This document shows positions 1 to 17,433 of a stretch of 37,763 bases of DNA, piece after piece (the first letter of the stretch is position 1; each line of letters starts with the position of its first letter). Position numbers and translations under genes: made by a program. The stretch covers positions 1 to 37,763 of the forward strand of contig NZ_QKQV01000019.1 in the NCBI RefSeq assembly GCF_003233725.1. The letters are read 5' to 3'. This stretch comes from Mesonia sp. K7 (lineage in GTDB: Bacteria > Bacteroidota > Bacteroidia > Flavobacteriales > Flavobacteriaceae). The notes under the pieces are model-generated. The model ran no database searches. It saw only the letters and a program-made list of their open reading frames with translations, and had not been told where the DNA came from.

Positions 1-124
1 TTTCATCAAAAAACAATTACTATTTTTAATAATGAAATAAATGTTTAATAACGGTCAACTCTATTCAGGGAAGTTCAATCCTGAGAAGTTTAAGTAAATG
101 GTATTGTAGCTATACTATATCTTA

Positions 125-146
125 ATACATATAATTTTGTATGTAT
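125..146 (+). promoter_or_regulatory. Promoter with flanking operator arms for a broken XRE gene
   Basis: The 7-nt arms ATACATA (125-131) and TATGTAT (140-146) are exact inverted repeats. They bracket TAATTTTG (132-139), which fits the Bacteroidota -7 box TAnnTTTG. The start codon of the small XRE relic lies 28 bases downstream. The layout matches the two other XRE promoters in this window (8650-8677 and 17383-17433), so autoregulation by the lost or truncated protein is the likely origin. Function is inferred from layout only. Confidence 0.45.
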
Positions 147-173
147 ATTCAATATTATATTTAAAAACATATA

Positions 174-353
174 ATGAAGAATTTAGCTGATTTTGTTAAA
201 GAACGTCGTAAAGCATTAGGTTTGATTACTTAAACTGATGAAAGTGTCATATCTAGAAATACTAACAGAACGATAGGCTATAATAGAATGATGTCGCTAA
301 CTAAAATCGAAAAATATTTCATTTATCATAAATTAAGATTTATGATAATATGA
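174..353 (+). pseudogene. Truncated XRE/HipB-like antitoxin relic
   Basis: An ATG at 174 opens a frame starting MKNLADFVKERRKALGL, which is how many Bacteroidota HipB-type helix-turn-helix antitoxins begin. A TAA stop at 231-233 ends it after 19 codons. The same frame then stays open to a TGA at 351-353, with residues reminiscent of the recognition helix (SVISRNT) and the following helix (SLTKIEKYF). This looks like a nonsense-disrupted, partly degraded gene of about 59 codons. No HipA-like partner follows, and the end of the convergent Roco gene overlaps it. The family call rests on the short N-terminus. Confidence 0.5.
323..348 (-). terminator. AT-only hairpin at the end of the Roco gene
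   Basis: An 11-nt perfect inverted repeat, TTATCATAAAT (323-333) and ATTTATGATAA (338-348), has a 4-nt loop and includes the stop codon of the Roco gene (326-328). On the minus strand a short T-run follows at about 310-315. A weak or bidirectional terminator between convergent genes is plausible, but the stem has almost no GC pairs. Confidence 0.35.
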
Positions 354-3010
354 TATAGAAATAATTTTGTGTTGTTACGATGATATACGGTTTTGAAAAC
401 TTTCATTTCTGATGAACCTAAATAAATTTCGGAAACATCAGTGTTACTATCTAGAACAATATTTTTTAAATCAATTTCATTTAAATATGCTAGATATTTA
501 ATGGTTAAAAGATCAAAGTCTTCTACTTTAGAATATACCCCAATATATTTCTCTTTAAGACCGTTGGAGTCATATTTCAGTAATGTTTTTTCTATATGAG
601 TTGAAATATTACGCCTGTCCATACTTTTTAAAATAAAACCTTCATAAAAAGATATCATTTCACCTTCTAAGGTTTCAATTGTAAAATCTAATTCTCCAGC
701 TTTCTTACCTGAGCTAGATTTACCTCTTAGGGATTGCTCATTTAAAAAATAATTACTTTTTATAATGTGAGCTCTAAAAATATCTTGAAAATAAATGTTA
801 ATTTCATCTTCATTAAAATCTTTAATTTGATTATATCTAGTTTGTAATGTTGAACCTGTACTTATTAATTTTCTTAAGAGGTCTTTTTTAGAATTTTCAT
901 CTGATCTATAGCCAATCATCATATTCTTAATATCAACCTGTTCAGTACTTTGTTGACAATAAATATATTCTTTGTCTTTTTTTAAAAAATTTATTAGTGT
1001 AGCTCTTTTGAATAGATAAGGAGAAGATGAATGAGAACATTCATTGCAATTGCAAGCTAAATATTCATTGGTATCAGTTTCAGCTATTTTAATGTCTGTA
1101 TGTATTTCTTTTATTTCGTGTTCAATAATGTTGAATAGAGGCGTGACCAACGAGCCTTTAACATATACTTTCAATTCTCGATTATGAACATCTGATATTA
1201 TTAAGGCTTCACTGTTTTCGGTATTTAATATCATTCCGTATTTCCAGATATTATTTCCTTTAATGTAATTGTTAAGCCGGCATATTAGTCTTTCTATAAC
1301 GCCAGATGGCATAAAATTATAATGAATTTTGTATTGTAGAGAGTTCATTTCATTTAGAAAGTTGTCAATTAATTTGTAATCATTTGGATATGGCGGTAAT
1401 AATGTTGGAATAATATATTCTTGTGGAGAACCTAAAATTTTATAACATATTTCGAATTTTTCCATTAATAAAATAATATCAAAAAACTTATCGTAAGGAT
1501 AATTAGAATTATCGAATAGTTCTTCTAATATATCAGCAGAAAATAAACCATTATTTTTTTGAACTTTAATCGAATTTATTAGTAAATATATAGCGTTTGT
1601 TAACCATTCGGGGTTAATTACAATTAGATTTTTTAAATAGAAATCACTTTGAAAATGTATGATTACGCCCAAATCATTTAAATATCTACTGATATATGCA
1701 ATGTCTTTTTTGTTTGAAGAATTACATATTTTTTTAAATTCATCAAGATTCAAATAATCTTGAGAGCTTTCTTTAAGTTCTCTCCTGATTCGATCCCAAG
1801 ATTTAGGTAGTGAATCACCTATGTGTGGCAAATTTAGAATTACACTTTCTATTTCAGTATTTAAATTCTCAAGTCCTGATTTATTTAAACAAGATATTTC
1901 TAAAAATGATACAATGTTGCTAAATCTTCTCTTGTAATATTCTTCATCTATAAGCTTAACCCTAATATCAGCCTTATTCATCACAATAATTACAGGGCTA
2001 TTATTACTCAATCTTTTTATTGTGTTCAGCCAATATTCAAAACTCTCTATTTCATCATCAGATCGAGGTTCCCATATTAATAAGTATATTGATCTTTGAG
2101 TTAAAAAAAACTGATGAGTAGAATAAAGTATTTCTTGGCCTCCAAAATCCCATATATTAATTATAATTTCTTTTTCAAAATAAATATTATTGTCTATAAA
2201 AAAAGGTTGTTGTTCAAGTCTTAATTGTAATAATGTATCTTCTGATAAATCAAGTTCTGATATATGATAATATCGTAAAACATTTTTCGGTATTGATAAA
2301 TTATTGTCATCATCATCGATATCAAAATCCGAATCTAATATTTGGAAATACAGATTTTGGATATTTGAAAAATGGTCATAATAAGGCTTTTTAGCTGGAA
2401 AAAGAATATTCTTTTTAACTGTCTGAACATTAATACCGTGTGTTGTTTTTTCTTTACCAACCTTAACTTTATATTTTTTGTTAGCGAGAACCTTCATCAG
2501 TGTTGTCTTTCCAACATTTCCTTTTCCCACTATTAAAAGTTTTGATTCAAAAAGTTTTTCTGTAGCATCTCTACTTCTTAATTGATCAAAATAAAAATCT
2601 ATATAACCTAAATCATTTGATGCTAATATTTCTATAGGTAATCCATCTAAAAAGGGGTTGTCTTCAAAAATTATTTCTGCATTAATAAAAAATAGATCAT
2701 TAGGAATATGATTTAATAAATTAGAGGAAATATTTAAAGTTTGTAGGCTATAATAAAGTCCTTCTATGAAATGTATGTCTTGAAGTAAATTATTACTAAG
2801 GTTAAGTGTTTGAAGGTTAGTTAATTTTGATAAGCAAAGGGGAAATTCTTTAAAGTTATTATGACTTACATCTATTTCCAAAAGATATATCATGTCAGAA
2901 ATATCTTCAGGAATATTATCAAGGTGTAGGCAAGACAAATCAAGAAACAATAATCTATCTTCACGTACTTTTTTAATTCTCTTTTTTGCTTCTTGAATAT
3001 AATTATTCAC
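326..3010 (-). CDS. LRR-Roc-COR (Roco-family) GTPase with possible nuclease-like C-terminus
   Basis: This 894-aa protein starts with leucine-rich repeats (about residues 20-130, LxxLxxLxLsxNxL pattern). A Roc GTPase domain follows, with P-loop GKGNVGKT (162-169), switch motif DFGG (288-291) and NKAD (345-348). A COR-like region spans about 400-640. Next comes a cysteine cluster CNCNEC (653-658) with a further Cys at about 685, a pattern I associate with the segment after COR in bacterial Roco proteins. The tail has GELDF (772-776) and YEGFILK (789-795), which could be a degenerate PD-(D/E)xK-type core. The start is GTG at 3010; the frame is open to 3049 with no ATG, and the next Met is residue 40. 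It lies 210 bases downstream of the methyltransferase gene on the same strand. Roco identity is firm; the nuclease idea and any defence role are inference. Confidence 0.88.
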   Translation of the reverse strand: MNNYIQEAKKRIKKVREDRLLFLDLSCLHLDNIPEDISDMIYLLEIDVSHNNFKEFPLCLSKLTNLQTLNLSNNLLQDIHFIEGLYYSLQTLNISSNLLNHIPNDLFFINAEIIFEDNPFLDGLPIEILASNDLGYIDFYFDQLRSRDATEKLFESKLLIVGKGNVGKTTLMKVLANKKYKVKVGKEKTTHGINVQTVKKNILFPAKKPYYDHFSNIQNLYFQILDSDFDIDDDDNNLSIPKNVLRYYHISELDLSEDTLLQLRLEQQPFFIDNNIYFEKEIIINIWDFGGQEILYSTHQFFLTQRSIYLLIWEPRSDDEIESFEYWLNTIKRLSNNSPVIIVMNKADIRVKLIDEEYYKRRFSNIVSFLEISCLNKSGLENLNTEIESVILNLPHIGDSLPKSWDRIRRELKESSQDYLNLDEFKKICNSSNKKDIAYISRYLNDLGVIIHFQSDFYLKNLIVINPEWLTNAIYLLINSIKVQKNNGLFSADILEELFDNSNYPYDKFFDIILLMEKFEICYKILGSPQEYIIPTLLPPYPNDYKLIDNFLNEMNSLQYKIHYNFMPSGVIERLICRLNNYIKGNNIWKYGMILNTENSEALIISDVHNRELKVYVKGSLVTPLFNIIEHEIKEIHTDIKIAETDTNEYLACNCNECSHSSSPYLFKRATLINFLKKDKEYIYCQQSTEQVDIKNMMIGYRSDENSKKDLLRKLISTGSTLQTRYNQIKDFNEDEINIYFQDIFRAHIIKSNYFLNEQSLRGKSSSGKKAGELDFTIETLEGEMISFYEGFILKSMDRRNISTHIEKTLLKYDSNGLKEKYIGVYSKVEDFDLLTIKYLAYLNEIDLKNIVLDSNTDVSEIYLGSSEMKVFKTVYHRNNTKLFLYHIIINLNL

Positions 3011-3219
3011 ATCAATATTTTTACTTTTCCAATTATCTTTCTGTAATATTTAGGATAATTCTATTTCACACCTTGGTTCCATAATTTAATATTTCCGGAT
3101 TATCTTCATTAATAATTAAAATAAACTTCAACATCATTAAAATTAATAAATTCAATAAATCTTGATATAATTTCTACTTAATGAATATAATTTATATTGG
3201 AAGAAATAGACATGAATTT

Positions 3220-4815
3220 CTATTTACGGTGTCTTTTTTTTACTAACTTCTTTCTGATTAATTCAATTTTATTGATTTCTTCGGTTGTAAGATTAAGAGA
3301 GCTATTTAATATTTGATGATTATATTTTAATAGAACATCTTCAATGTCCTGCTTACCTTTAAAATCTTTTTTATATGAACTAAAATCTTTATGAATAGCC
3401 ATTGGTACAGGTAAGACTCTAAATTCATTTGGTGTAAGTTCTAAAACGCCACCACCATAATAACGCCCTTCTAATTCAGCAAAAGCCAACGTTAATGAAT
3501 TGTAGAATGAGAATATAAAATCATTTAAATTGTAATCATTTTTAATAGATACATTATAAGCACTATCAGTTACAAATACATTCGCCTCATTCTTTAATAA
3601 CTTTGGATATTCGTGTGCTCTTTTAAAGAAAAAGGCTTTTGATTGTTTAGAAATATTCGGTACTTGATACCAATGATTTCTTTGTTTACATTTGAATCTA
3701 TCTTGAAGTTTTCCTTCTTCGCCTAAATCTATATATGCCTTTACATTTGAAGGAATATTTTCAACATCTAAACCATTAAAATCCAATAAAAAAGCTGGTT
3801 TGTTTTCTTTTATTAATTTTGAATAATCATATTTATTAAAAGACACAGAGCCATTAACGAAAAAACCTTTTTGCACTATTGGTTTTGCATAATCTTTTAA
3901 ATCAAATTTATCTAAAGTTTCTTTAACAACAATGAAATAATTGTTTGCGGCAGTAACTATACCTGCTTTATTATCTACATAATCAGAAACAAGACTTAAA
4001 TCTTTTTTTATGTTCTCAAGGAATGTATGTTCTTCTGGCGTTATAAAATGATGTGTCCATTTTTTACTTGACTCTGATACACTTTCATTACTATACAATC
4101 TGAAACTTCTATTTTGAAGCTCATCCATTGATTTGATTGTTGTATAAAATGTACCTGGTACTTTATGCTTTTTATAGCCTATTAACAATACTGTATCTTG
4201 ACCTTTACACTCCAAAAATTGAAGTTCGTCGAACATAAAAATCTCGATACGCTCAAAGTTTTTTTTAAGCAAATCTCTTATTTCTTCTGTAAACTTTACC
4301 TGTAGTAATTCTAGTGGAAGCACAAAAGCTAAAAGACCATTTTTCTGTAGTTTAGAAATACCGCTAACAAGAAATGATGTCCAAATATTATTTATTTTTC
4401 TATCAGCAAGGTTTTGTTCTAAATGAATTTCTTTAGCTAGTGCCTTTTGTTCATCAGTGAGGTAATTACTTTTTACATAAGGTGGGTTTCCCAAGATAGC
4501 AGAAAATTTCTTTTTACTATCAGAGTGAAAATTCAAATAATCTTTGTTTAAAGCTACCAATGTGATAGAATTATTAGTCTTTTTCTTTTTTGCTTTTTTT
4601 AATTCTTCCTTTTCCCTTTCAACAATAGTTAAATCAATTTTATTAAAATTATTTAGTGCTTCTGTTTCATTTATAGCCTGTACAAAATTACCATCGCCGA
4701 CACTTGGTTCGAGCACAGAGATATTAAGTTTATCTATTTGAGATAAACAATAATCAGCAATAAATTTTGCTAAATTAAGAGGTGTGTAATATGAGCCTAT
4801 ACTTTTTTTATTCAT
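3220..4815 (-). CDS. N6-adenine DNA methyltransferase (class with NPPY motif)
   Basis: This 531-aa protein has the M.TaqI/Eco57I-type layout. Motif X-like GSYYTP is at residues 7-12, SAM-binding motif I (VLEPSVGDGNF) at 34-44, and catalytic motif IV NPPY at 110-113. The C-terminal half (about 240-500) is suited to be the target-recognition domain. No PD-(D/E)xK nuclease is fused at the N-terminus, unlike the larger type IIG enzymes, so cleavage would need a partner. The ATG overlaps the stop of the upstream HNH gene in an ATGA junction (4812-4815), which indicates translational coupling. It is the last gene of the XRE/GHKL/receiver/HNH operon. Its likely role is to mark host DNA for the system; target specificity cannot be read from the sequence. 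Confidence 0.92.
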   Translation of the reverse strand: MNKKSIGSYYTPLNLAKFIADYCLSQIDKLNISVLEPSVGDGNFVQAINETEALNNFNKIDLTIVEREKEELKKAKKKKTNNSITLVALNKDYLNFHSDSKKKFSAILGNPPYVKSNYLTDEQKALAKEIHLEQNLADRKINNIWTSFLVSGISKLQKNGLLAFVLPLELLQVKFTEEIRDLLKKNFERIEIFMFDELQFLECKGQDTVLLIGYKKHKVPGTFYTTIKSMDELQNRSFRLYSNESVSESSKKWTHHFITPEEHTFLENIKKDLSLVSDYVDNKAGIVTAANNYFIVVKETLDKFDLKDYAKPIVQKGFFVNGSVSFNKYDYSKLIKENKPAFLLDFNGLDVENIPSNVKAYIDLGEEGKLQDRFKCKQRNHWYQVPNISKQSKAFFFKRAHEYPKLLKNEANVFVTDSAYNVSIKNDYNLNDFIFSFYNSLTLAFAELEGRYYGGGVLELTPNEFRVLPVPMAIHKDFSSYKKDFKGKQDIEDVLLKYNHQILNSSLNLTTEEINKIELIRKKLVKKRHRK

Positions 4816-5429
4816 TTTCTAATTTCAGCCAATTTGTATGGTCTTATATTATTTCGTTTTTGGGTTGTCTTAAGCAATTCAATTATGCCTTTATTAGACT
4901 CCTTTAATAACTCTTTTGTATCTATTATTTCTTGCAGCGATTCAATAGCTTTCGTAACATTTTCTGCTCTTTGCTGTAAAACTGTTTCACGCCTTTCATA
5001 CAACAATTGTGGTCGATTTAAATAAAGTCTTTCTGTCATATATCTAGTACTAATATATTTACCATTGACTTTATAATCATCACTACTAATCTCAAATAAT
5101 TCCGAATAATTGTATTCAGAAGGATCTGGATAACAAATTATATCTAAATCATCTGCATCATTTGGCCAGTCATTGCTCTTAAACCTATTGCATATAGGAC
5201 AACTGTAGAATAAGTTACAAATATCATTCTCTAAAGCTTTAAATTTTTCAATTGATTTTGGCTTATAATGCTCGATATGATAATGGTCAATACCTCCAAA
5301 TTGTGCTTCATTTATTGAACAATAAATACATTGAAAAAAACACTCTTCTGCTATTTGCTCTTTCCAATCTGTATATATTCCTTTTTCCGGTTGAGTAGCC
5401 TTGTCTTTAATTATAAGTTTCCAATTCAC
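4812..5429 (-). CDS. HNH endonuclease
   Basis: This 205-aa protein has a compact HNH/treble-clef signature: CIYC (34-37), DHYHIEHYKPKS (48-59) with the general-base histidine candidates, then CPIC followed by Asn (77-81). These are the zinc ligands and metal-binding residues expected of HNH nucleases of the type found beside ATPases in defence loci. The C-terminal part (about 120-205) is helical and has no motif I recognise. The gene is coupled at both ends: its start lies at the end of the receiver gene (5429) and its stop overlaps the methyltransferase start. It is the obvious candidate for the DNA-cleaving subunit of this operon; that role is inferred. Confidence 0.88.
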   Translation of the reverse strand: MNWKLIIKDKATQPEKGIYTDWKEQIAEECFFQCIYCSINEAQFGGIDHYHIEHYKPKSIEKFKALENDICNLFYSCPICNRFKSNDWPNDADDLDIICYPDPSEYNYSELFEISSDDYKVNGKYISTRYMTERLYLNRPQLLYERRETVLQQRAENVTKAIESLQEIIDTKELLKESNKGIIELLKTTQKRNNIRPYKLAEIRK

Positions 5430-6088
5430 TATTCCTTGATTTTATTTTCAATTTTCTTCTGAAGCTCTTCTAAAAATTGAATTTTACCTTCATACTCATC
5501 TAACCAATCCTTTCTTTCTCCTAAACCACTATCGATTTGAACATTTAGTTTAAGTTGTAACGCTTTCAAGCGTATTAAATCATTTTCATCACTCTTACCC
5601 GATGCTACTAACTCCGACAAATGCTTTAATTCTGAAAGCTCTGAAATATTTTCATCTAAAAAACTTTGACTTGCACGGATAAACCTTTTTACATATTTCT
5701 CACCATCATTAATAAATTCTTCTCTACCTATAATATCTTCAAACTCACTAAACTTTTCCTGTAAGTCGTCATCATTTTTGTGTGACGTTATTACATAGAT
5801 TGGAATATCTTTAAAATATTTTCTTATCTCTAAAACAAGCTGATTTCCTCTATAGCCGACAGGACCTTTTCCCCCTTCAGAATCATTATGCATTTGTTCA
5901 TCAAAAATTAAACAAACTATATCATTTTGCTCTACCCAATCTTTGTATTGAGCTATTGAATCATCAGGAAAAGGAAATGTATCAACCACCTCAATACTAG
6001 AATCAAAATTTTCTAAATGAGATTCAAGAATTGTTTTTAACGTTTCTCTTTGCGCTTTATCATCATCTATAATGCCTATTTTACTCAT
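5429..6088 (-). CDS. Response-regulator receiver protein without a known output domain
   Basis: The N-terminal 125 residues form a CheY-like receiver. There is an acidic pocket DDD at residues 8-10, a phosphoacceptor candidate Asp63 in LIFDEQ, and a TS pair at 101-102 before HKND. About 95 residues follow that look helical and coiled-coil, with many Glu, Leu and Lys. No DNA-binding or enzymatic output domain is visible, so it may act by binding another subunit. I chose ATG 6088 because MSKIGIIDDD is the natural receiver start and it lies 2 bases after the kinase stop (6091-6093). An in-frame upstream start at 6124 would add 12 basic residues and overlap the kinase gene by 33 bases. It is paired with the adjacent GHKL/histidine-kinase protein. 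Confidence 0.87.
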   Translation of the reverse strand: MSKIGIIDDDKAQRETLKTILESHLENFDSSIEVVDTFPFPDDSIAQYKDWVEQNDIVCLIFDEQMHNDSEGGKGPVGYRGNQLVLEIRKYFKDIPIYVITSHKNDDDLQEKFSEFEDIIGREEFINDGEKYVKRFIRASQSFLDENISELSELKHLSELVASGKSDENDLIRLKALQLKLNVQIDSGLGERKDWLDEYEGKIQFLEELQKKIENKIKE

Positions 6089-6090
6089 AA

Positions 6091-8436
6091 CTAATTTCTT
6101 TGTTTTCTTTCTTTTGGAAGCCAAATTTTAAACCTAGCTCCTTTTAATATAGGGTCTTTATCAAAAGAAATATTACCGTTTAAATCGTTTACTATAGAAT
6201 TTACAACTGTAAGACCAAGACCAGTACCAATACTCTTACTACTCTGTGTTGGATTTACTTTAGTTGAAAAAAGCGGTTCAAATAATCTATGTTCAAACTC
6301 TTTAGAAATACCTGGTCCAGAATCAGAAACAATAAGAGAATATCCATTTTCTATCAATTTTTTTGGCTCCTTCAAGCCTTCTTCTATTAATCTAACTTCT
6401 ATCAATCTCTTACCGGACTTCAAGGTAGCAGCTGTATAAGCATTTGTCAAAAGGTTAATTAAAACTGTTTCAATATCCATTTGAAACGTATATGTATAAA
6501 TATCTTTAAGTTCTGTATTAATGCTTATTGAAGCAGCTTTATATGCCGGTTCTAACTCATTAACGACCGACTGTATGATTTTAGCAATATTTACATTTTT
6601 TTTATTACGCTTTTCTCTTTGAACTCTTGTTAATGCGTAAGCACCCCATGCAGCAACTCTTTTCGACGATTTTACAGCTTTTTCGATTTCTACAATCGCA
6701 TCCTCTACTTTTGGAACTTTTCTAGATAATGCAAGTTTTGCTGCCATTACAGAACCTTTAAGTTGGGTTATGGAACCTTCCGTTTCATGTCCGAAAACCG
6801 CAGAAGATATTCCGATTGTAGCCAAACCACTTAAGGTTCTATTCCAATTAAGAAGTTCAGTTATAGTTTTTTCAACTTTATCAGTTGTACCGCTTAAGTC
6901 ATTTACATTTTTTTGAACTCTCTCTTTAATATGACTAGCTATATCAGAGTTATTTTGAATATCTAAATTGATACTATACAAATCCCTTTCAATACTGTTT
7001 AAAGCTTTTATTATTCTTTCAGTTCTTGACTCTTTACTACGTGATTTTCTTTTAGCTTCATTAATTTTTGGTATTAATTTGGTTCTGTAAGATTCAAGCA
7101 TATTTATAGTACCCATTACCAAACTTTTTAAATCATAAAAAGCTTCTGATTCCACCAAACCCTCTCTTGCAGCACTATCTGCTAATTCTATATTAGAATC
7201 TCTAGCTATAAAAACAGCACCAACTAATTGATTTGGGGTAACACTATAATTTGCAGATCTACTAATACCAGCCGGATCTTTAGCTTTCCTATCTGCCAAT
7301 CCTAACCAATCATATCCAAATTGAGAACTTGGGAAGCCATAAGGCTTGACAACTATTCGGTCACGATATATTTTAATTCCAGCATTGTTGTCGAGAAATT
7401 CTCTTAATTTGGTTAGATTAAATTCAAGATCTTTAACTGATGCACTCTCTCTTAAAAAGAAATAAAGTTTAATAGTAGCTGAACCAGATCTAATTTTATT
7501 GTCAACTAAGTTAGTGGTATCAATGCCTGCTCTTGTTAACAAATTAGACCACTCAATTTTTTCAATAACCTCTTTTTTATTGTATTTGTCCCAATAAGTA
7601 TAAATTATTTCTGTACCTGTCCCTGGATAATAAGCTTCAATTTTAATTTCAGCTGCATCAAGATAATTTGAGTTAATTTCTTCTGATGGAAGAGGATAGA
7701 CATCGTTAACTAAGGAAATATGAAAATCTTCAACACCCTCAAAAGGTGGAGTTAATGCTGATAGTTCTTGAAAAAGATTTTCAATATTTATTTTTGACCA
7801 TGATTGACGTTGCTCTTCAATTAATATTTCCGTTCCAGTCGTGGAAGGTTTACCATTAGTTAAGGGTAAATTAATTTCTTTTGGCTCAAAAATTTGAACA
7901 CGAATATCTGAAAGAGATTTTCCTTCTACATCAAAATCATCCCAATTGACTTTTAAGCCTATAAGTTTTTCATCTTTAGATTTTGTTCTTAATTCTAGTT
8001 TTGAACCTAGTCTATCAGTAGATATACGCCCAATTCCTTTTTCGCCAGTTTTCCTACGTCCTAACTTACTTTTTGTTGAAACCCTTTTACCTGAATACCC
8101 AATGCGTAACCAATTATTCTTCAATTCCTCTGGTTTCATACCAAAACCATTATCTGCAACACGTATAATATCTTTAGTTTCAGAGAAAATCTCAATATCT
8201 ACTTTCGTAGCATCAGCATCATAGCTGTTTTTTACCAACTCTAACAAAGCAGTTGAATGATCTTTAATGCTATCTCTTCCCAAATGAATTAAAGTTTTAG
8301 CATCAATATAAAATCTTTGATTTGTAGGATCCAGCTTTGCTAATTCTGTAGACAATGAAACAATATCATCTAAATTTGGCGGGTTACTTTGTATGGCCAA
8401 AAGTAATTTTGCTTGTATTTCTTCAGATTTACTCAC
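6091..8436 (-). CDS. Dual-GHKL protein: MORC/Hsp90-like ATPase fused to a histidine kinase
   Basis: This 781-aa protein carries two GHKL ATP-binding modules. The first (about 45-250) has N-box ELVKNSYDAD (66-75), DNGFGM (95-100) and GEKGIGR (131-137), typical of MutL/Hsp90/MORC-type ATPases. A middle region (about 260-450) may be the S5-like part. A helical segment (450-610) contains an H-box candidate FGHETEGS with His550. The second module (610-775) has NLLTNA (661-666), DSGPGI (705-710) and GTGLGL (737-742), the N, G1 and G2 boxes of a histidine kinase. There is no transmembrane segment, so it should act in the cytoplasm. It starts with GTG at 8436, sharing one base with the XRE stop. Prokaryotic MORC-like ATPases are known from restriction-modification neighbourhoods. 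The combination with a kinase half and a cognate receiver suggests ATP-driven sensing passed on by phosphotransfer. Confidence 0.9.
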   Translation of the reverse strand: MSKSEEIQAKLLLAIQSNPPNLDDIVSLSTELAKLDPTNQRFYIDAKTLIHLGRDSIKDHSTALLELVKNSYDADATKVDIEIFSETKDIIRVADNGFGMKPEELKNNWLRIGYSGKRVSTKSKLGRRKTGEKGIGRISTDRLGSKLELRTKSKDEKLIGLKVNWDDFDVEGKSLSDIRVQIFEPKEINLPLTNGKPSTTGTEILIEEQRQSWSKINIENLFQELSALTPPFEGVEDFHISLVNDVYPLPSEEINSNYLDAAEIKIEAYYPGTGTEIIYTYWDKYNKKEVIEKIEWSNLLTRAGIDTTNLVDNKIRSGSATIKLYFFLRESASVKDLEFNLTKLREFLDNNAGIKIYRDRIVVKPYGFPSSQFGYDWLGLADRKAKDPAGISRSANYSVTPNQLVGAVFIARDSNIELADSAAREGLVESEAFYDLKSLVMGTINMLESYRTKLIPKINEAKRKSRSKESRTERIIKALNSIERDLYSINLDIQNNSDIASHIKERVQKNVNDLSGTTDKVEKTITELLNWNRTLSGLATIGISSAVFGHETEGSITQLKGSVMAAKLALSRKVPKVEDAIVEIEKAVKSSKRVAAWGAYALTRVQREKRNKKNVNIAKIIQSVVNELEPAYKAASISINTELKDIYTYTFQMDIETVLINLLTNAYTAATLKSGKRLIEVRLIEEGLKEPKKLIENGYSLIVSDSGPGISKEFEHRLFEPLFSTKVNPTQSSKSIGTGLGLTVVNSIVNDLNGNISFDKDPILKGARFKIWLPKERKQRN

Positions 8437-8639
8437 TATGAATTAATTAGGTTTCTTGGATTAATGTTTAAAGCTTTTGCTATTTTGAATAGTGTTGGTA
8501 GTGATGGCTGTCTATGATTTGTACACCAATTAGATATGGTTGTTTCACTCATATCCAATTTTTTTGCCAACCATTTATTGGATTTATTTTTTTCTGCTAG
8601 AACAATTTTTATCCTATTGTAACTATTAAATACAAGCAT
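8436..8639 (-). CDS. XRE-family controller protein
   Basis: This 67-aa protein is almost entirely one Cro/C1-type helix-turn-helix: NKWLAKKLDMSETTISNWC is followed by PSLPTLFKIAKALNI. It resembles the controller (C) proteins of restriction-modification operons. I chose ATG 8639. An upstream TTG at 8660 falls inside the -7 promoter box and is unlikely. It is first in the five-gene operon, with its TAG stop sharing a base with the GTG of the next gene. The palindrome at 8650-8677 covering its promoter suggests that it regulates its own operon. Confidence 0.88.
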   Translation of the reverse strand: MLVFNSYNRIKIVLAEKNKSNKWLAKKLDMSETTISNWCTNHRQPSLPTLFKIAKALNINPRNLINS

Positions 8640-8649
8640 ATTATTTACA

Positions 8650-8677
8650 CTAAAACACAAATATATTTAAGTTTTAG
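8650..8677 (-). promoter_or_regulatory. Promoter/operator of the XRE-led defence-like operon
   Basis: On the minus strand TATATTTG (8665-8658) matches the Bacteroidota -7 consensus TAnnTTTG. It sits between exact inverted arms CTAAAAC (8650-8656) and GTTTTAG (8671-8677). Transcription would start near 8652, giving a leader of about a dozen bases before ATG 8639. A repressor bound to the arms would cover the box, so negative autoregulation by the XRE protein is the simplest reading. No clear -33 element was seen. Confidence 0.6.
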
Positions 8678-8728
8678 CATATTTTTTTAAAATATCATAA
8701 CTATCTGTGTTTATCAGCACTTTTTTTA

Positions 8729-9130
8729 TCAAAAGCAATCAAATTGAAAAGTTGTCTCATTCTGGAACGGACATGTTTGCTGTAAAGGTCTTATGGCTCT
8801 TTGATATTTAGGCTTGTTTAAATGATATTTTCCACTCACCTTTCTACCCACAAGTATATAGTTAATTTGCCAGTAACCACCTTTTGCACTACCAATTCTT
8901 TCTGTAAGACCTAAATCTTTTAGGGCATCAAGGTTGTTATCAATAGCAGTAGGACTTAAGCCCACTTTATCTTTCAGTTCTCTTTTAGAAACTTTACTGT
9001 CTTCGTGAATAGCTTTAATTATATTAACTTTATTATCAGTAAGATTATCTACCCACTTATCTACCCACGTATTAAAGTCAAAAGGACTTCTAATTATTTC
9101 GGTAAACATACCTTCTGTATTAAACTCAGT
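8729..9130 (-). pseudogene. C-terminal remnant of a winged-helix (AlbA/RecG-like) ATP-binding protein
   Basis: An open frame of 126 codons from ATG 9109, open upstream to a TAG near 9131, encodes a winged-helix segment. The segment runs NKVNIIKAIHEDSKVSKREL to GLSPTAIDNNLDALKDLGL, then GSAKGGYWQI. The preceding residues (TEFNTEGMFTEII) look like the last strand of AlbA_2/HATPase_c_4 proteins, which carry such a winged helix at their C-terminus. The rest of that family is missing upstream. I read this as the tail of a deleted gene rather than a complete small regulator. Upstream DNA (about 9150-9235) is noticeably richer in GC than its surroundings. If it is expressed from ATG 9109, it would be a free winged-helix protein. 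Confidence 0.5.
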
Positions 9131-9340
9131 GACCTAAAATCTGCTATAATCAAAGGCAAATCTCCAAGCCCAGCTGCTGCCCTTTGCGGGAAAAGGATGA
9201 CACATCATCGGCTATATGCAATTTGATCGTGTTTAATCTGTATTTTAAGTATTCTTGAATAAATTCGATATATTTAGAATCAAAAACGTAACTAAGCATA
9301 GCCAGCTCTACCGCATGTACAATTATAAACGGATACTAAA

Positions 9341-10550
9341 ATGAAAAGTATTTTTACTATTCTTATATTAATTAACTTCAATGTTGCTATTGCTCAATGG
9401 ACACAGAAGAATTCGGGAACAACCCATGATTTATATGACATTCATTTTCCAACGGCTGACACTGGTTATGCAGTGGGTTATTATGGAACTATTCTTAAAA
9501 CCAATGATGCTGGAAATACATGGACTATCTTAAATAGCAACACTTTTTCCGATTTATACGCTGTTTATTTTTTGAATTCAAATCAAGGATTTGTAGTGGG
9601 TGACAGTGGAATATTCACAACAACTAATGGGGGCAATACTTGGAATCAACAGGTTATTCCCACATCTAATCCATTGAGAGATGTTGAATTCATTAATCAT
9701 CAAATTGGATTTTGTGTAGGGCATAGTGGTACTATTTTGAAAACCACAGATGGTGGAAATTCGTGGGTAATTAAACCTAACGATATTTCGCAGCCAATGA
9801 TTAATTTTAAAAGTATTATCTTTCCCATACCTGACACAGGTTATATTGCTGGACATTCTCTTTGGGACTTTCTAAAAACCACAGATGGAGGAGAAACATG
9901 GAATCGTATTCAAATAGACACTAATCCCGGTAATCCTGTTATTTTTGAATCTGTATATTTCACCAGTGCCCATACGGGTTATATTGGAGGTTGGTACGGA
10001 GCGGTACTTATTAAAACATTGGATGGTGGGAATAGCTGGATTAATAAAGATAGTTCAGGGCAAGCTCAGATTTATTCAATTTACTTTCCAACATCTGCTG
10101 TTGGATATACAACAGGATGGTATAGTACTGTTCTTAAAACAAGTGACAGCGGATCTTAAAACAAGTGACAGCGGAAATACATGGAGCTATCAAAATACAG
10201 GTGTACCAAATAAAGTATTTTATTCCGTTTATTTTACTGACAACTCAACGGGTTATATTGTTGGTGAAAGCGGGACGATATTAAAAACTACAACTGGAGG
10301 TACAATGGGAATCAATCAACATTTACCATATAATCAGCAAATTATCATTTATCCTAACCCGACAAATAGCCAACTTAACTTTTCTGTTCAGACTAACGTT
10401 CAACTGACCAGTGTAACAGGTCAAATTGTTGCCGATAGAAAAACCATAAAAACACTTAGCCTTTCCGACCAACCGACAGGCGTTTACTTTCTGACATTTA
10501 CCGATACCAACGGACAAGTAGTTCAACGAAGTAAAATTATAAAAGAATAA
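9341..10550 (+). pseudogene. Secreted YCF48/BNR-repeat protein with T9SS type-A sorting tail, frameshifted
   Basis: The protein has a signal peptide (MKSIFTILILINFNVAIAQ) and then about six repeats of the form TGYAVGxxGTILKTxDgGxTW. These resemble YCF48/photosystem II stability-factor and BNR beta-propeller blades. A C-terminal T9SS type-A sorting domain begins at IIIYPNPTNSQLNF and ends GQVVQRSKIIKE. The reading frame breaks at 10132-10175: a 22-bp unit is directly duplicated, giving a TAA at 10157-10159 and shifting the rest by one base. Removing one copy restores VLKTSDSGNTWSYQNTG across the junction. The intact gene would make about 395 residues, an exported surface or secreted propeller. 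As it stands, the product lacks its last blade and its secretion signal. Confidence 0.85.
10132..10175 (+). repeat. 22-bp tandem duplication that breaks the YCF48-like gene
   Basis: Bases 10132-10153 and 10154-10175 are identical, adjacent 22-mers. Since 22 is not a multiple of 3, the second copy shifts the frame and introduces an immediate TAA. Perfect identity suggests a recent event or an assembly or clonal variant. Confidence 0.95.
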
Positions 10551-11123
10551 CTGGCCACTACAATGGTAACCGTTCTACCTTCACCAGATAAATGCCCAAA
10601 GCTATAATTTACAAAAAAAGAAGTTTTTTAAAGCGTTTTAAGCGGTTTTAGTTTTTGATTGTCGTGTCAAACAAAAACTAAAGAGTTTATGGCCTCTCCC
10701 AACTGATTTTTTATAAATAGAATATTTGCCCACTTTTTGTCCTTTTAGTGGGGATTTTTGAGTTATTTTTTAAAATAGTGAGCTATTATTGTCAATTGTA
10801 ATCCAGCGCAATGGCAAACTTCAGGCTGTGGTGAATGTTATTTTCGAAAACGGAATTGGTTGAAGAGTTTTTCTTGATAGGTGTTTTTTACTTGTATCTT
10901 ATGAAATTAATTTTTTTAAGTAACTTGTGCAGCAGGCGCGCATTTTATAAACGCAAGGGGTTAAGTGCCAAGTTGAAAGAATTTTGTAAATTTTTTTAGT
11001 GAATTTTAATAATATTTGATATTAAACCTGATATAAAGACTGTTGTTATCCAGTGACATATAATGCGAAAAGATTATATTAGGTTTTGATAAAGAGTTGT
11101 ACCTTATTTAAAGAAAACATTCT
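10551..11123. other. Gene-free stretch with hairpins and a possible degraded IS
   Basis: No coding frame is supported here. The region has the shared boundary sequence AATGGTAACCGTT (about 10563-10575, close to 12099-12111). A 9-nt inverted repeat follows, TAGTTTTTG (10649-10657) with CAAAAACTA (10672-10680). A CCCACT/AGTGGG hairpin lies near 10729-10752. Bases 10680-10920 resemble eroded insertion-sequence flank, but no transposase motif could be fixed. GTTATCC near 11046-11052 may be the left end of the next cassette-like unit. Confidence 0.35.
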
Positions 11124-12083
11124 ATGATTAAAGAAATAATTGATGAATTAACTGAGACTGAAAAATCTTTAGTAAATCCACTTTTAAAGGCGAAGGTGTT
11201 GGCTAACCGATTAGGGAATACTGAATTACTTAATTGGGTTGATAAGGAATTGAAAGGTTATGTCGGAACACCACCTAAATATCGAATAGTAAAGACAAGA
11301 ATGACTTGTGACATTTCTGTTGGCGGTATGATATATAAAGAAAACACACCCTTTCCCGTACTTTTCTTAAACGACAAAGAATTGCAGAATTTCTTTATGC
11401 AATTCGATATCAAAGACGGAATTGAAACAATAGAGAATTATTTTGTTGGAGGAAATGATACGTTAATCAAACCTTTAGGAGTTGATTTTGATTCAATCAT
11501 TACGCAACATTTACAAAAAAACAACTTTCAAGGAAGAGTTCATAATATTCAAATCAGTTCATATAAAACGGAAGTAATCCAATGCTTATCTAATGTGCGA
11601 AATATTTTCTTGAACCTTATGCTTGAGCTTGAAAAGGAATTTCCTGATGTTGAAGATGTTTCAAAAGAACCACAGGATGTAAAAGAAGAAATAAGTAATA
11701 AAATAACTATAATTATGGCTGAAAACAACTATTCCACAGGAGATGGAAGTAACATCGTGTCTGGAAGTAATAATAATACCAATTTTGCATCTGGAAAAAA
11801 TATTAGACAAAATTTTGTAATAAATACTGCTAAAAAAGAACAGATAAAAACTGTTGTAGATGAAATTCGAGAATTTATAGAATCTAATGATTTCGAAGAG
11901 AAAGATGAGGCGAAACTCGAACTTCAACGAATTGAAAATCAAATTGAAAAAGACCAACCGAAAGGAAATGTAATTTCTCAGTCGCTCGGTGCTTTAAAAG
12001 ATATATTCACAAGTGTAACAGCAAATTTAATTTCTGGACCTGTTATCGAATCAATAACGAAATTGTTATCCAGTCTCGGATAA
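11124..12083 (+). CDS. AbiTii-domain protein, probable phage-defence gene
   Basis: The first 80 residues match the AbiTii domain pattern: LVNPLLKAKVLANRLGN, then LLNWVDKELKGY. This domain is found at the N-terminus of proteins linked to abortive infection. A beta-rich middle follows to about residue 190. Next is a Gly/Ser/Asn-rich repeat segment (YSTGDGSNIVSGSNNNTNFASGKNI, residues about 200-224, shown here only for its composition). A charged coiled-coil helix (about 235-275) leads to a last hydrophobic or amphipathic helix (SLGALKDIFTSVTANLISG onward). That end could insert into a membrane or mediate assembly; this is inference. It stands alone on the plus strand between cassette-like boundaries, with no partner gene and no clear promoter. 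Confidence 0.72.
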   Translation: MIKEIIDELTETEKSLVNPLLKAKVLANRLGNTELLNWVDKELKGYVGTPPKYRIVKTRMTCDISVGGMIYKENTPFPVLFLNDKELQNFFMQFDIKDGIETIENYFVGGNDTLIKPLGVDFDSIITQHLQKNNFQGRVHNIQISSYKTEVIQCLSNVRNIFLNLMLELEKEFPDVEDVSKEPQDVKEEISNKITIIMAENNYSTGDGSNIVSGSNNNTNFASGKNIRQNFVINTAKKEQIKTVVDEIREFIESNDFEEKDEAKLELQRIENQIEKDQPKGNVISQSLGALKDIFTSVTANLISGPVIESITKLLSSLG

Positions 12084-12090
12084 AAAAATA

Positions 12091-12130
12091 AGGCATAACA
12101 ATGGTAGTCGTTGCACAAGGCTCTAATCTT
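12091..12130 (+). repeat. Left half of a cassette-boundary palindrome interrupted by IS fragments
   Basis: GGCATAAC at 12091-12098 follows the AbiTii gene. Its complement GTTATGCC closely resembles GTTATCC at the presumed start of the same unit (about 11046). AATGGTAGTCGTT follows, then GGCTC near 12119, which can pair with GAGCC at 12911-12915 just before AAACCGTTA. The two halves are now separated by about 780 bases of IS relics, as if an element had inserted between them. Confidence 0.4.
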
Positions 12131-12149
12131 ATAAAAACAAGATAGGTTT

Positions 12150-12172
12150 AAGCCCTTTTAAGGGCTTTTATT
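12150..12172 (+). terminator. Rho-independent terminator-like hairpin
   Basis: AAGCCCTT/AAGGGCTT forms a compact stem at 12150-12167, followed by TTTATTTT. It could end transcription of the AbiTii gene on the plus strand, or it may belong to the end of the IS1182-like fragment that begins beside it. Confidence 0.6.
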
Positions 12173-12378
12173 TTAGCCTAGGATTTAGTTGTATGTTAAA
12201 ATCTAGAAGCTTAAAACAAAGTAAAATGTGTTTTATGATGGTTTTTGGAACAGAATAGATAGACTGTAGGCTTGCCGCTCCACTTTTTATCTTCTTTTGT
12301 GTGAATTTCAGGTACTTTTTTAAGTTATAGGCAACAGCTGAAAGATGCATATATTTATTTGCCTGTTTTAAACCAATA
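12168..12378 (-). pseudogene. IS1182-family transposase, C-terminal fragment
   Basis: The minus-strand frame reads LKQANKYMHLSAVAYNLKKY and on to a stop at 12168. This is the conserved end of IS1182-type DDE transposases in Bacteroidota, about 65 residues long. The catalytic core is absent. Its upstream end is joined directly, near 12378, to an unrelated IS110-like sequence, so this is a chimera of two broken elements. Confidence 0.6.
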
Positions 12379-12660
12379 ACGCTTGAAACGTCCTGACTGC
12401 ATCACACAAACCTTATATCCCAAATTATGGAGGTAATGACATACTTCTTGATGGTAAACTCCTGTTGTTTCCATTAAAACATAAAAGTCTACATTAGTCT
12501 TTACTGTTTTAACCAACCATGCCTTCAAGGTTTTTAAATCCCAAAACATCATTGCTTATTTCAGGGTGACTTGTAAAGTTCTTTTTTTAATTACTACCAA
12601 TAATACCGAAATTTAGAGATAAGCTGCTCTTAGATACATTTATTCCCAGATTGCTTTAAT
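12355..12660 (-). pseudogene. IS110-family (DEDD) transposase, N-terminal fragment with frameshifts
   Basis: Reading in from about 12660 on the minus strand gives LKQSGINVSKSSLSLNFGII, after a one-base frameshift, which is the start of the RuvC-like DEDD domain with its first Asp replaced by Asn. After further shifts come LKAWLVKT, FYVLMETTGVYHQ and KVCVMQSGRFKRY, the expected next blocks of the IS110 N-terminal domain. The sequence then breaks off into the IS1182-like tail. It is certainly inactive. Family recognition is good because the block order is preserved. Confidence 0.72.
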
Positions 12661-12769
12661 ATGGTGTCCATAATAACTTTTTTAAGCTATTGCTCCCTTT
12701 GTCATCTTTACTCGCTTTTGATTCGATCCTTTAATTTGGATCTAGGTATTGTCCAGATTCGAAAAGAAC

Positions 12770-12842
12770 AATAGAAGGGCGAGGTTTCTATGAAACGATA
12801 TCATTGAATGTATCTAGCCGAGACCTCGCTGTCCCTTCTATT
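12770..12842 (-). other. Large imperfect hairpin upstream of the IS110 relic (possible bridge-RNA region)
   Basis: AATAGAAGGGCGAGGT (12770-12785) pairs with the inverted copy at 12823-12842, leaving only a 4-nt bulge. Inside it a second stem, GTTTC/GAAAC, lies at about 12784-12796. It is located in the non-coding side upstream of the IS110-type transposase start, where intact IS110 elements encode their bridge (seek) RNA. The assignment is inference from position and structure. Confidence 0.35.
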
Positions 12843-12910
12843 TTAGCTTTCATTAATAATTAGAAAACTACTATATTTATAGTCAATAAATTAGTAAAGT
12901 TTAAACATAC

Positions 12911-12930
12911 GAGCCGAAACCGTTATGTGA
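12911..12930 (+). repeat. Cassette-boundary right arm before the DarT-like gene
   Basis: GAGCC is followed by AAACCGTTA (12917-12925) and then TGTG. The start codon is 17 bases further on. The 8-mer GTTATGTG (12922-12929) is the exact reverse complement of CACATAAC at 13707-13714, just after this gene. That is the relation expected between the two ends of an integron cassette. Confidence 0.5.
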
Positions 12931-12942
12931 AAGCTGAAAAAA

Positions 12943-13713: not shown

Positions 13714-13840
13714 CAGCGAATATAGGTTATGGCGGAATTAGTGTCAAATCCTAAGTTTTTGTATTTTTAAAATCGTAAAACTTTAACCGAAAAATTTGTG
13801 CATTTTTGCATGCCACAAACCATATACGCAAACCGTTACA
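13707..13840 (+). repeat. attC-like imperfect palindrome between two accessory genes
   Basis: The left arm CACATAAC (13707-13714) is followed by GCGAATATAGGTTATGG (13716-13732). The right arm at 13813-13829 is close to the reverse complement of that inner part (GCG, ATAT, GGTT and GG keep their order). It runs into AAACCGTTACAC (13830-13841). The whole would fold into a long bulged hairpin with a central loop of about 77 bases. Stop-to-palindrome and palindrome-to-start distances are very short. The core GTTACAC differs from the classical GTTRRRY of attC sites. Confidence 0.5.
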
Positions 13841-13859
13841 CACAATTTAGACGCAAGGG

Positions 13860-15835: not shown

Positions 15836-17086
15836 TTAAACATTAAACGCTTTAGACATCAAACTTTGCTCTTTGTTAGGTATGCCAATTTCTTTCGCTA
15901 CCTCTTGCCAAGTTGCTACTACCGTTAATACTTCTTTTATGATTTTGTCCATTTGCTCCTCGTCTAAGCGGAAAAACTCGCCAACGCTTTTGGCTAATTC
16001 ATAATCCAATGCATTATTGTCCATATCGATATTGAGCGCAAGTCCGTCTTTGTCTATAGAAGGGTTTATGTCGTAAGCTGATGATAATACCCAACCGCTC
16101 TTGGTTAAGATAAAACCATGGTTGCGTAAATGGTCATCGGTATTTGAAATGGCAATATTAAATATTATTCTGCGCCATAATTGTTCTAAATTATCAGCAA
16201 CCATTGCTCCGTGATTTTGGATGAATTCTGCCATATCCAAATAACTTGCTGGATTATCCCTGATGGTATCTTCGTTATTGCCTGTCATGGTCATCGCAGA
16301 AGCAAAGTGAACTCTGCAGCCTTCTTCACGGTCAAATCTTTTGGTAAAAAAAGTATGAAATCTGCCACTGATCTTTTCAATTTTTGAAGGTGCCATATGA
16401 ATGCCTGCTTTTATTGCCAATTGATATGCTAGGTATTCCCAAGCTGCTTTATCTACCGTATCGTTTTTAGAAGGGAATTTGGCTATCCATAATTCTTTGT
16501 TTTCATCAAGTATATTTGCCTTGGGTCTTGCCCCACCCAATGAGGAGCCTGGAGCCATTAAAACTGCTAGCCATTTTCTTACCTCATCACTATCTTCATC
16601 ATTTTCAAAATTTTTTGCAGCCTCTTGCAATTCCCTCACGGATGACCAAGGTGGGGTAGGGTTTAGCTCGTTGTTATCTAAGAAAGGCCCTTTTGGGTCT
16701 AGTTTAAACCGTAAGGCGCCCATTCGGCTTTCATCATAAACTCCTAACAAATAATCAATTTCATAAAGTGTTTTCGTCTTTTCATTCTTTACTGTTGCTT
16801 GTTGTGCTGCTCTTCTTTTCATTAGCGTTCGTCCCCACGTATCCGGCATACTGTCTAGGAATACCCCGAAATTTTCTTTATTGTTTGGGTATTGTGGACC
16901 ACTATAGAATTGTATGTCCGGATCTAATACCATTTGTGCTTTGGACTTTAGCCAATCTTTATCATACTCAAAGCTAAATGCTTTTTTGCCCTTAGCATAC
17001 AACGCAGAAAGGACTCCCATTAATTGGGGTTTTTCCAAACCTTTCCAATGGGCATATATGTAGATATTCTTTTTTCCTTTTGCCAT
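15836..17086 (-). CDS. hipA: HipA-family serine/threonine kinase toxin
   Basis: This 416-aa protein is a full-length HipA-type kinase. It has an N-terminal subdomain ending at MPDTWGRTLMKRR (80-92), a flexible P-loop SSLGGARPKA (181-190), AKF with the ATP-binding Lys203, and TKRFDR (248-253). The catalytic loop is NTDDHLRNH (315-323) and the metal-binding motif is YDINPS (338-343). HipA kinases phosphorylate translation components (GltX in E. coli), causing growth arrest that the HipB partner relieves; the target here is unknown. It starts 1 base after the hipB stop, so the two are cotranscribed from the operator at 17383-17433. All expected motifs are present, so the toxin is probably active. 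Confidence 0.95.
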   Translation of the reverse strand: MAKGKKNIYIYAHWKGLEKPQLMGVLSALYAKGKKAFSFEYDKDWLKSKAQMVLDPDIQFYSGPQYPNNKENFGVFLDSMPDTWGRTLMKRRAAQQATVKNEKTKTLYEIDYLLGVYDESRMGALRFKLDPKGPFLDNNELNPTPPWSSVRELQEAAKNFENDEDSDEVRKWLAVLMAPGSSLGGARPKANILDENKELWIAKFPSKNDTVDKAAWEYLAYQLAIKAGIHMAPSKIEKISGRFHTFFTKRFDREEGCRVHFASAMTMTGNNEDTIRDNPASYLDMAEFIQNHGAMVADNLEQLWRRIIFNIAISNTDDHLRNHGFILTKSGWVLSSAYDINPSIDKDGLALNIDMDNNALDYELAKSVGEFFRLDEEQMDKIIKEVLTVVATWQEVAKEIGIPNKEQSLMSKAFNV

Positions 17087-17087
17087 T

Positions 17088-17375
17088 TTAAATTAAATCT
17101 AAATCTTGTAATTTTCTTCCAAATTCGTCATCTGCTGCGAGTTTTAAAAAATCATCTTGTAGTCCAAGTACACGCAGCACATTGAAATAAGCACCTATTG
17201 TTACACTTGGGTTTCCTGTTTCAATGAGGTATAGGGTACTTCTTACAATATCAGCTCTTTCGGCGACTTGCTCTTGGGTTAGCTTCCTCCTTTTTCGTGC
17301 CAATTTAATGTTTTCCCCCATTTCTTTAAGCACTTCTTTATGCTTTGGAAACAATATTTGCTTTTTTTTATTCAT
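17088..17375 (-). CDS. hipB: HipB-family XRE antitoxin
   Basis: This 95-aa protein contains a Cro/C1-type helix-turn-helix: ENIKLARKRRKLTQEQVAER, then ADIVRSTLYLIETG (about residues 21-60). A short C-terminal tail ends GRKLQDLDLI. I chose ATG 17375 (MNKKKQILF). An upstream in-frame start at 17429 would begin inside the operator and promoter. It lies directly before hipA. It should bind HipA and repress the operon through the long palindrome just upstream. Confidence 0.93.
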   Translation of the reverse strand: MNKKKQILFPKHKEVLKEMGENIKLARKRRKLTQEQVAERADIVRSTLYLIETGNPSVTIGAYFNVLRVLGLQDDFLKLAADDEFGRKLQDLDLI

Positions 17376-17382
17376 TCTAATT

Positions 17383-17433
17383 ATGATTGTTATTTCATAC
17401 AAATATAGTCTTTTTGATTGAAATAACAATCAT
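17383..17433 (-). promoter_or_regulatory. hipBA operator and promoter
   Basis: Two 15-nt arms, ATGATTGTTATTTCA (17383-17397) and TGAAATAACAATCAT (17419-17433), are perfect inverted repeats 21 bases apart. On the minus strand the spacer holds TATATTTG (17405-17398), a TAnnTTTG -7 box. A TTG about 19 bases upstream, in the distal arm, can serve as the -33 element. The near arm ends 8 bases before the hipB start. HipB binding would cover both promoter elements. Confidence 0.75.

Follow-up and report, generated by a model that had tools for sequence, protein, structure and literature searches.

A five-gene operon was found in a stretch of 37,763 nucleotides (nt) from Mesonia sp. K7 (GCF_003233725.1, contig NZ_QKQV01000019.1, forward strand 1–37,763), hereafter called the window. 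Its five open reading frames (ORFs) ran on the minus strand from position 8660 down to 3220, with adjacent ends overlapping or a few bases apart, and encoded, in the direction of transcription, an XRE-type protein, a soluble histidine kinase with two GHKL ATPase domains, a stand-alone receiver, a predicted HNH nuclease, and a predicted adenine methyltransferase. By their distribution among genomes, the kinase, receiver, and HNH genes formed an inseparable trio. The methyltransferase, as judged from identities and trees, was inherited separately from this trio and was an exchangeable module. We give an even chance to the reading that the operon is a phosphorelay-gated, restriction-like immune unit. 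The five tightly coupled genes, located by an original prediction made from the letters alone, were all confirmed as ORFs.

A phylum sample of 395 genomes was searched separately by the kinase, a receiver profile, and an HNH profile. The kinase, as a single-sequence query at an E-value of 1e-30, was found in 17 genomes. The receiver profile gave five loci at 2.7e-44 or better, and the next match, at 1.6e-10, was at the level of ordinary receivers. The HNH profile likewise gave five loci at 5.5e-52 or better, followed by a match at 4.2e-21. The five strong receiver loci and the five strong HNH loci were the same, and all were kinase loci (G000, G025, G057, G226, and G249). The remaining twelve kinase genomes of this sample had related kinases without this HNH.

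The loci named below were the best 80 of 534 kinase relatives and were fetched by the kinase alone. Operons were called by a rule of same strand and gaps of less than 120 bases, which favours tight neighbours. HNH was carried by 54 of the 80 loci, which is not a prevalence since the patterns came from HNH-type kinases. A methyltransferase was located within the operon in 51 of the 54, downstream in 40 and upstream in 11, and the contigs of the other three ended within 3 kb of the kinase. Across these loci, the methyltransferase always accompanied the trio wherever the contig was long enough. Among kinase loci of proviral contigs, 14 of 46 were HNH-type, each with a methyltransferase (14/14). 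In a sample of the window's own family, the kinase was found in 19 of 149 genomes at 1e-40; 13 other loci were fetched, with five lower-scoring genomes left out, and five of these were HNH-type, all carrying XRE, kinase, receiver, HNH, and methyltransferase. A same-genus genome of this sample (G444) contained no kinase at an E-value of 1e-40, and the gene island flank sought in it gave one 200-base match of 67% identity, so that no empty site was obtained.

Of 67 HNH-type loci, 15 had an XRE-like ORF upstream of the kinase gene, and XRE was rejected as a core member on this count. The conserved core of the loci compared is composed of four genes, the kinase, receiver, HNH, and methyltransferase. 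The co-occurrence proposed originally for all five genes was borne out for these four and not for XRE. The XRE protein, with an alternative ATG a few codons downstream of its TTG start, is likely the control protein of the operon. In two HNH-type operons, L042 (Klebsiella variicola plasmid) and L066 (Pseudomonas), the kinase was split into separate ORFs and the neighbours were intact; L042 fell outside the HNH class under the operon rule.

The separate history of the methyltransferase was observed in pairwise identities, DNA homology, and trees. Identities over 64 loci correlated at 0.84–0.90 among the kinase, receiver, and HNH, and at 0.29–0.40 between these proteins and the methyltransferase. 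The trio correlations were 0.90–0.94 within methyltransferase group 1 (23 loci) and 0.79–0.92 within group 2 (18 loci), and the HNH–methyltransferase correlation was 0.09 in each group, a value that stands without an ordinary type II pair as control. Where the kinases shared 50% identity or more (105 pairs), the methyltransferase was below 35% identity in 29, the receiver below 30% in one, and the HNH below 30% in none. Where the methyltransferases did so (140 pairs), the kinases were below 40% in 81. The methyltransferases of the window and L024 were 88% identical over their full length, and the kinase, receiver, and HNH were 27, 17, and 23% identical in multiple alignments (30, 26, and 34% in pairwise alignments, with the methyltransferase again at 88%). 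Two Belliella species had methyltransferases 93% identical beside kinase, receiver, and HNH proteins of 36, 24, and 30% identity. In pairs with unrelated trios, DNA homology detected by blastn began about 15 bases or less from the HNH/methyltransferase junction in seven of eight and ended near the end of the methyltransferase gene; for L105–L108, it started about 200 bases further in.

Quick trees were calculated for 23 chosen loci of the 64 with all four genes. The kinase, receiver, and HNH trees had the same 11/12 split with full support, at one change each. The methyltransferase tree needed eight changes for this split, which was rejected by the approximately unbiased (AU) test (p = 1.1e-9); in the reverse AU test, a clade picked out from the methyltransferase tree was rejected by the kinase data (p = 4.5e-103). 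Clade A had already been named, on the basis of the kinase tree, when the methyltransferase tree was tested for it.

These results bear on the simplest explanation of the gene content, an ordinary type II restriction-modification (R-M) pair in which HNH and methyltransferase share one specificity, the GHKL ATPase is accessory, and the kinase chemistry is incidental. The gene content is R-M-like, the HNH and methyltransferase genes overlapped by a median of 4 bases in 47 adjacent pairs (pairs more than 120 bases apart being excluded by the operon rule), and the N-terminal ATPase of the kinase resembled the BbrUII/HgiDII restriction family at 5.6e-25, but with 88 of 550 bits. However, joint inheritance of the nuclease and methyltransferase, as in type II systems, was sought in the identities, trees, and correlations and was not found; near-identical methyltransferases were located beside HNHs of 23–31% identity, and the reverse was also seen. 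The invariance of the phospho-His and phospho-Asp, described below, likewise argues against incidental kinase chemistry, and this explanation appears improbable. By these comparisons, the HNH does not behave as a classical sequence-cognate restriction enzyme, and it is unlikely to be one because the trio changes its methyltransferase, and a nuclease paired with the wrong methyltransferase would be expected to be lethal to its host. Of the R-M-like operon proposed originally, an R-M-like defence role was retained as the likeliest reading, and the matching of HNH and methyltransferase as a classical type II pair was not.

The kinase was composed of an N-terminal MORC/Hsp90-like ATPase, linker helices, dimerization and histidine phosphotransfer (DHp) helices containing H550, and a C-terminal kinase ATPase. 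Pfam placed HATPase_c_3 at residues 62–184 (1.1e-23) and HATPase_c at residues 654–776 (3.7e-25), and the same N- and C-terminal domains were present in 24 of 24 diverse kinases. The AlphaFold model, predicted as a single chain from a 50-sequence alignment, had a mean predicted local distance difference test (pLDDT) value of 83 and a predicted template modelling score of 0.58. In this model, H550 was located within a helix of residues 539–571, followed by a second helix of residues 577–605, which is the DHp layout, ahead of the C-terminal ATPase. Crystal structures of HK853 were the top matches of the model in a fold search, and MORC2–DNA and Hsp90 structures were among the first fifty. No membrane segment was found, the maximum 19-residue hydropathy being 0.83. 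The MORC/MutL-type ATPase and histidine kinase in one soluble chain, as predicted originally, were thus observed.

Residues were counted in 69 of the 72 HNH-type loci, with L066 (kinase split) and two loci with identical kinases excluded. H550 was kept in 69/69, as were E66, K69, N70, D95, G97, and G99 of the N-terminal ATPase and N661, N665, G707, G737, G739, and G741 of the C-terminal ATPase. The phospho-His and both ATPase sites were also invariant in all 24 kinases spanning every subtype and effector type seen. Given this invariance of the catalytic residues across the loci, strong constraint acts on the two ATPases and on the relay chemistry.

The receiver matched PF00072 under the gathering cut-off (Table 1) and is real but divergent. 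The ATG at 6088 was the likeliest start, which gives the length of the Lutibacter protein, 219 residues. The phospho-acceptor is then D63, in agreement with the original prediction, and the same residue is D75 from the TTG at 6124. The receiver model (61-sequence alignment, mean pLDDT of 89) showed alternating strands and helices followed by three helices. The acidic residues, D75 (D63 from the ATG), T113, and R134 were located at or just past the ends of strands 1, 3, 4, and 5, and the closest solved folds were receiver proteins, for example PorX. In 66 loci, after three further loci without a full-length clustered receiver were set aside, the phospho-Asp, acidic pair, and Thr/Ser were present in 66/66, and the conserved Lys position was occupied by Lys or Arg in 61/66 (Lys in 53, Arg in eight, and other residues in five). 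The two-component hallmarks were therefore present in both proteins: the H, N, G1, and G2 boxes of the kinase, and the acidic pair, Asp, and Thr/Ser of the receiver, with Lys replaced by Arg in the window. The C-terminal part of the receiver was a helical tail without a recognised output or DNA-binding domain in Pfam or in the model, as had been expected.

The absence of such a domain is relevant to a regulatory explanation, in which the two-component system controls transcription or expression of the R-M system. The authors of a 2021 account of related kinase–receiver pairs proposed signalling control of R-M systems in their Discussion (PMC8011034), and the XRE gene is the first of the operon. 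However, the receiver has no DNA-binding domain, HNH is inherited with the kinase and receiver and not with the methyltransferase, and XRE, where present, already provides a control protein. We consider this explanation quite unlikely.

The HNH protein was most similar to PtuB. It matched the PtuB model of PADLOC and, slightly below the cut-off, the HNH family of Pfam (Table 1); against the PtuB model of NCBIfam it scored 29.4 bits, with a cut-off of 150, and its PDB profile matches were PtuB and other HNH chains. Residues H54, N72, N81, and K84 were invariant in 69/69 loci. Residues C37 and C80, each the second cysteine of a CxxC pair, were lost jointly in 15/69 and singly in none; this coupled zinc-knuckle loss was observed, for example, in L024, L029, L069, L076, and L078. 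The predicted N6-adenine methyltransferase contained the NPPY motif named in the original prediction, and the motif class was intact in 64/64. A search against the PADLOC defence models, as the original prediction had proposed, gave matches for XRE, HNH, and methyltransferase, whereas at an E-value of 0.01 no model spanned the whole kinase and none matched the receiver.

The resemblance to PtuB brings in an abortive-infection guard. The trio would monitor the methyltransferase or the methylation state, and a disturbance by an invader would let the relay activate HNH, which would cleave host RNA or DNA and halt the cell; the methyltransferase would be antitoxin-like and its specificity would hardly matter. 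A guard with an RNA-cutting HNH is the main rival because Septu PtuAB cleaves tRNA-Tyr, for which its HNH residues are required (PMC13096335). The exchange of methyltransferases beside an unchanged trio would suit a nuclease without sequence choice. However, no PtuA-type ABC ATPase was matched among the five operon proteins (PADLOC and Pfam), the similarity to PtuB was far below the NCBIfam cut-off, and the constant presence of a DNA methyltransferase points to a decision made on DNA. This guard is considered a rather unlikely explanation.

In the preferred reading of a phosphorelay-gated immune unit, DNA without the self mark would be recognised, directly or via the methyltransferase, by the MORC/Hsp90-like ATPase at the N-terminus of the kinase, serving as a DNA clamp or sensor. 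Detection would lead to autophosphorylation of H550 and transfer of the phosphate to D63 of the receiver, which, via its helical tail, would release or activate the HNH nuclease. The methyltransferase would mark self DNA, and XRE would be an optional control protein timing expression. The kinase, receiver, and HNH would then be a sensing and killing trio, indifferent to sequence and checked by the methylation of its partner. Because the methyltransferase is freely exchanged between trios, it probably also sets what sequence counts as self. Release of the check by His-to-Asp phosphotransfer is suggested because the relay residues are invariant.

Related loci had the same kinase–receiver layout with other neighbours. 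In some, a metallo-beta-lactamase-fold protein came next after the receiver (called in L025, L026, L027, and L041), and in others (L028, L030, L038, L044, and others) the receiver continued at its C-terminus into a further domain, which has a conserved P-x-C-D motif and no name in Pfam; Pfam and PDB profiles detected the receiver part only. In Pfam, ten more proteins encoded downstream in other subtypes yielded a single HNH_2 match and a single weak leucine-zipper match. In this layout, the effector resembles a plug-in. A more specific version of the preferred reading, offered tentatively and less likely than not, is a plug-in identity module: the trio would take its definition of self from the adjacent methyltransferase, a cytoplasmic His-Asp relay driven by the MORC-like clamp would decide on cutting, and the core would be reused with HNH, metallo-beta-lactamase-fold, and receiver-fused effectors.

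Several observations weigh against a phosphorelay-gated immune unit. The receiver of the window has Arg in place of the conserved Lys. The receiver-fused domain is of no recognised nuclease family, and the gating of the nuclease by the receiver is for this reason drawn from gene order and not from a known fusion. L058 combined a kinase and a methyltransferase upstream of it with a truncated HNH, and no ORF was called as its receiver; the protein at the receiver position of L099 fell outside the receiver cluster. A weak kinase–methyltransferase link persisted (r = 0.23; Mantel p = 0.0015 in 23 loci, and 0.07). No demonstration of phosphotransfer in a protein of this type was found in the open-access PMC literature.

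The 2021 account of kinase–receiver pairs beside R-M genes left their function open, and the separation of nuclease and methyltransferase observed here makes it testable. If the preferred reading is true, a classical signalling relay would be a bacterial safety catch on DNA destruction, one gene change could alter what counts as self, and a prokaryotic relative of the eukaryotic MORC ATPases would have a functional setting.

The operon was compared with that of Lutibacter flavus (L046; window 1–14000 against 15,346 bases). Homology in blastn was one block covering the operon only, and the compared flanks differed (Table 1); the operon appears to move as one piece because the homology is confined to it. 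The ratio of nonsynonymous to synonymous substitution rates (dN/dS) was 0.05–0.08 for all five genes, a rough figure with dS near saturation. The operon is, on these comparisons, more than a chance assembly, being conserved and under purifying selection.

Table 1. Genes of the operon and neighbouring features of the window
Feature	Position	Strand	Evidence
XRE/Cro-type helix-turn-helix protein, 74 aa from TTG	8436..8660	-	HTH_3 1.2e-12 (Pfam), PADLOC Control_protein 1e-5
Soluble dual-GHKL histidine kinase, 781 aa	6091..8436	-	Pfam, predicted structure, fold matches, conserved residues
Stand-alone receiver, 219 aa from ATG	5429..6088	-	PF00072 5.8e-6, model, receiver folds (TTG reading: 5429-6124)
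PtuB-like HNH nuclease (predicted), 205 aa	4812..5429	-	PADLOC PtuB 9e-19, Pfam HNH 3.6e-4, PDB profiles
Eco57I-type N6-adenine DNA methyltransferase (predicted), 531 aa, NPPY at 110-113	3220..4815	-	M_Eco57I_C 1.5e-31 (Pfam), PADLOC MTase_II 5.1e-131
DNA homology with Lutibacter flavus operon L046, 80% nt identity	3221..8772	.	blastn
LRR-Roc-COR protein	326..3010	-	COR-A 7.7e-34, Roc 6.4e-23
Winged-helix fragment	8729..9109
YCF48/BNR-repeat secreted-type protein, two overlapping frames	9341..10550
AbiTii-domain protein	11124..12083
IS110 transposase fragment	12355..12552
HipA-like/HTH pair	15836..17429

Kinase relatives were found in proviral contigs and on plasmids, and the operon of the window was located within an island containing AbiTii, LRR-Roc-COR, and HipA genes. 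The first 17.5 kb of the window look like a defence island in their gene content, beside methionine and histidine synthesis genes. The LRR-Roc-COR gene followed the operon immediately downstream, in the same orientation, and its protein had no PADLOC match at 0.01. The winged-helix and IS110 transposase fragments were apparent remnants among the defence genes. The YCF48/BNR-repeat gene appeared broken, and its second frame ended in a sorting-signal-like tail. In L047, a phage-type integrase gene (4860–6158) was located immediately upstream of the kinase, which suggests carriage on an integrative element. Campylobacter conjugative plasmids made up 41 of 60 plasmid records with kinase relatives; in the one inspected (L044), the kinase adjoined a receiver protein and a cytosine methyltransferase. 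The receiver gave no match to plasmids by tblastn, and the kinase gave one partial match to annotated phages, covering 53% of the query and belonging to an unannotated record.

Soluble proteins with HATPase_c_3, HEF_HK, and HATPase_c domains, paired with Response_reg_2 receivers, were described in 2021 (Bellieny-Rabelo et al. 2021, PMC8011034). In that paper, kinase and receiver were linked at 91.6% in 644 regions, type II R-M genes were enriched, HNH domains included, a link to paraMORCs was proposed, and no tested mechanism was given. The original prediction had regarded a relay inside such a system as not well described, a view superseded by this publication. The operon of the window resembles these elements in its HATPase_c_3, phospho-His helices, HATPase_c, and soluble character, in a neighbouring receiver-like protein without further domains, and in R-M genes nearby. 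Unlike them, it matched neither PF19191 (HEF_HK) nor PF19192 (Response_reg_2): the kinase gave no match to PF19191 at E-values up to 10, a range in which HMMER filters drop most matches above 0.1, and PF00072 was the sole match of the receiver. A simple identification of the pair with HEF_HK/Response_reg_2 was rejected, since the window proteins were unmatched and one of 24 diverse kinases reached HEF_HK (E = 0.0032). The commonest companion of the HEF_HK elements was a C5-cytosine methylase with Vsr, whereas the window has an adenine methyltransferase and a PtuB-like HNH. Methyltransferase re-pairing was seen here, and none is reported in the available part of PMC8011034; in the open-access PMC literature, no paper was found on this HNH subfamily or on such re-pairing.

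ParaMORC ATPases are located in R-M operons, and paraMORC1 was noted with HNH nucleases (Iyer et al. 2008, PMC2292703). The operon of the window shares with them an N-terminal GHKL ATPase within an R-M-like operon. Unlike them, it has a full histidine kinase fused C-terminally, and the text of PMC2292703 has no receiver or two-component terms. Detocs is a defensive two-component system that uses a kinase and receiver in phage defence (PMC11249213), which also corrects the original view that such a relay is not a well-described defence type. Detocs has three genes, and its effector is, in the case described best, a PNP that breaks down ATP, whereas the window operon has a separate HNH and a DNA methyltransferase; none of its five proteins matched PNP in Pfam, NCBIfam, or PADLOC. 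With Septu and the PtuAB of retron I-A, the operon shares a candidate HNH of the PtuB kind, which in PtuAB is controlled by an ATPase. PtuA is an ABC-type ATPase, whereas the window operon has a GHKL ATPase-kinase, a receiver, and a methyltransferase.

VcSduA, of the Shedu type, protects against phage only when its GHKL ATPase and its nuclease are both functional (PMC12137116). It is a single chain with a PD-(D/E)xK nuclease and without a kinase, receiver, or methyltransferase. The pairing of a GHKL ATPase with a nuclease is common to both, and this experimentally proven relative in kind supports, by analogy, the reading of the operon as a phosphorelay-gated, restriction-like immune unit.

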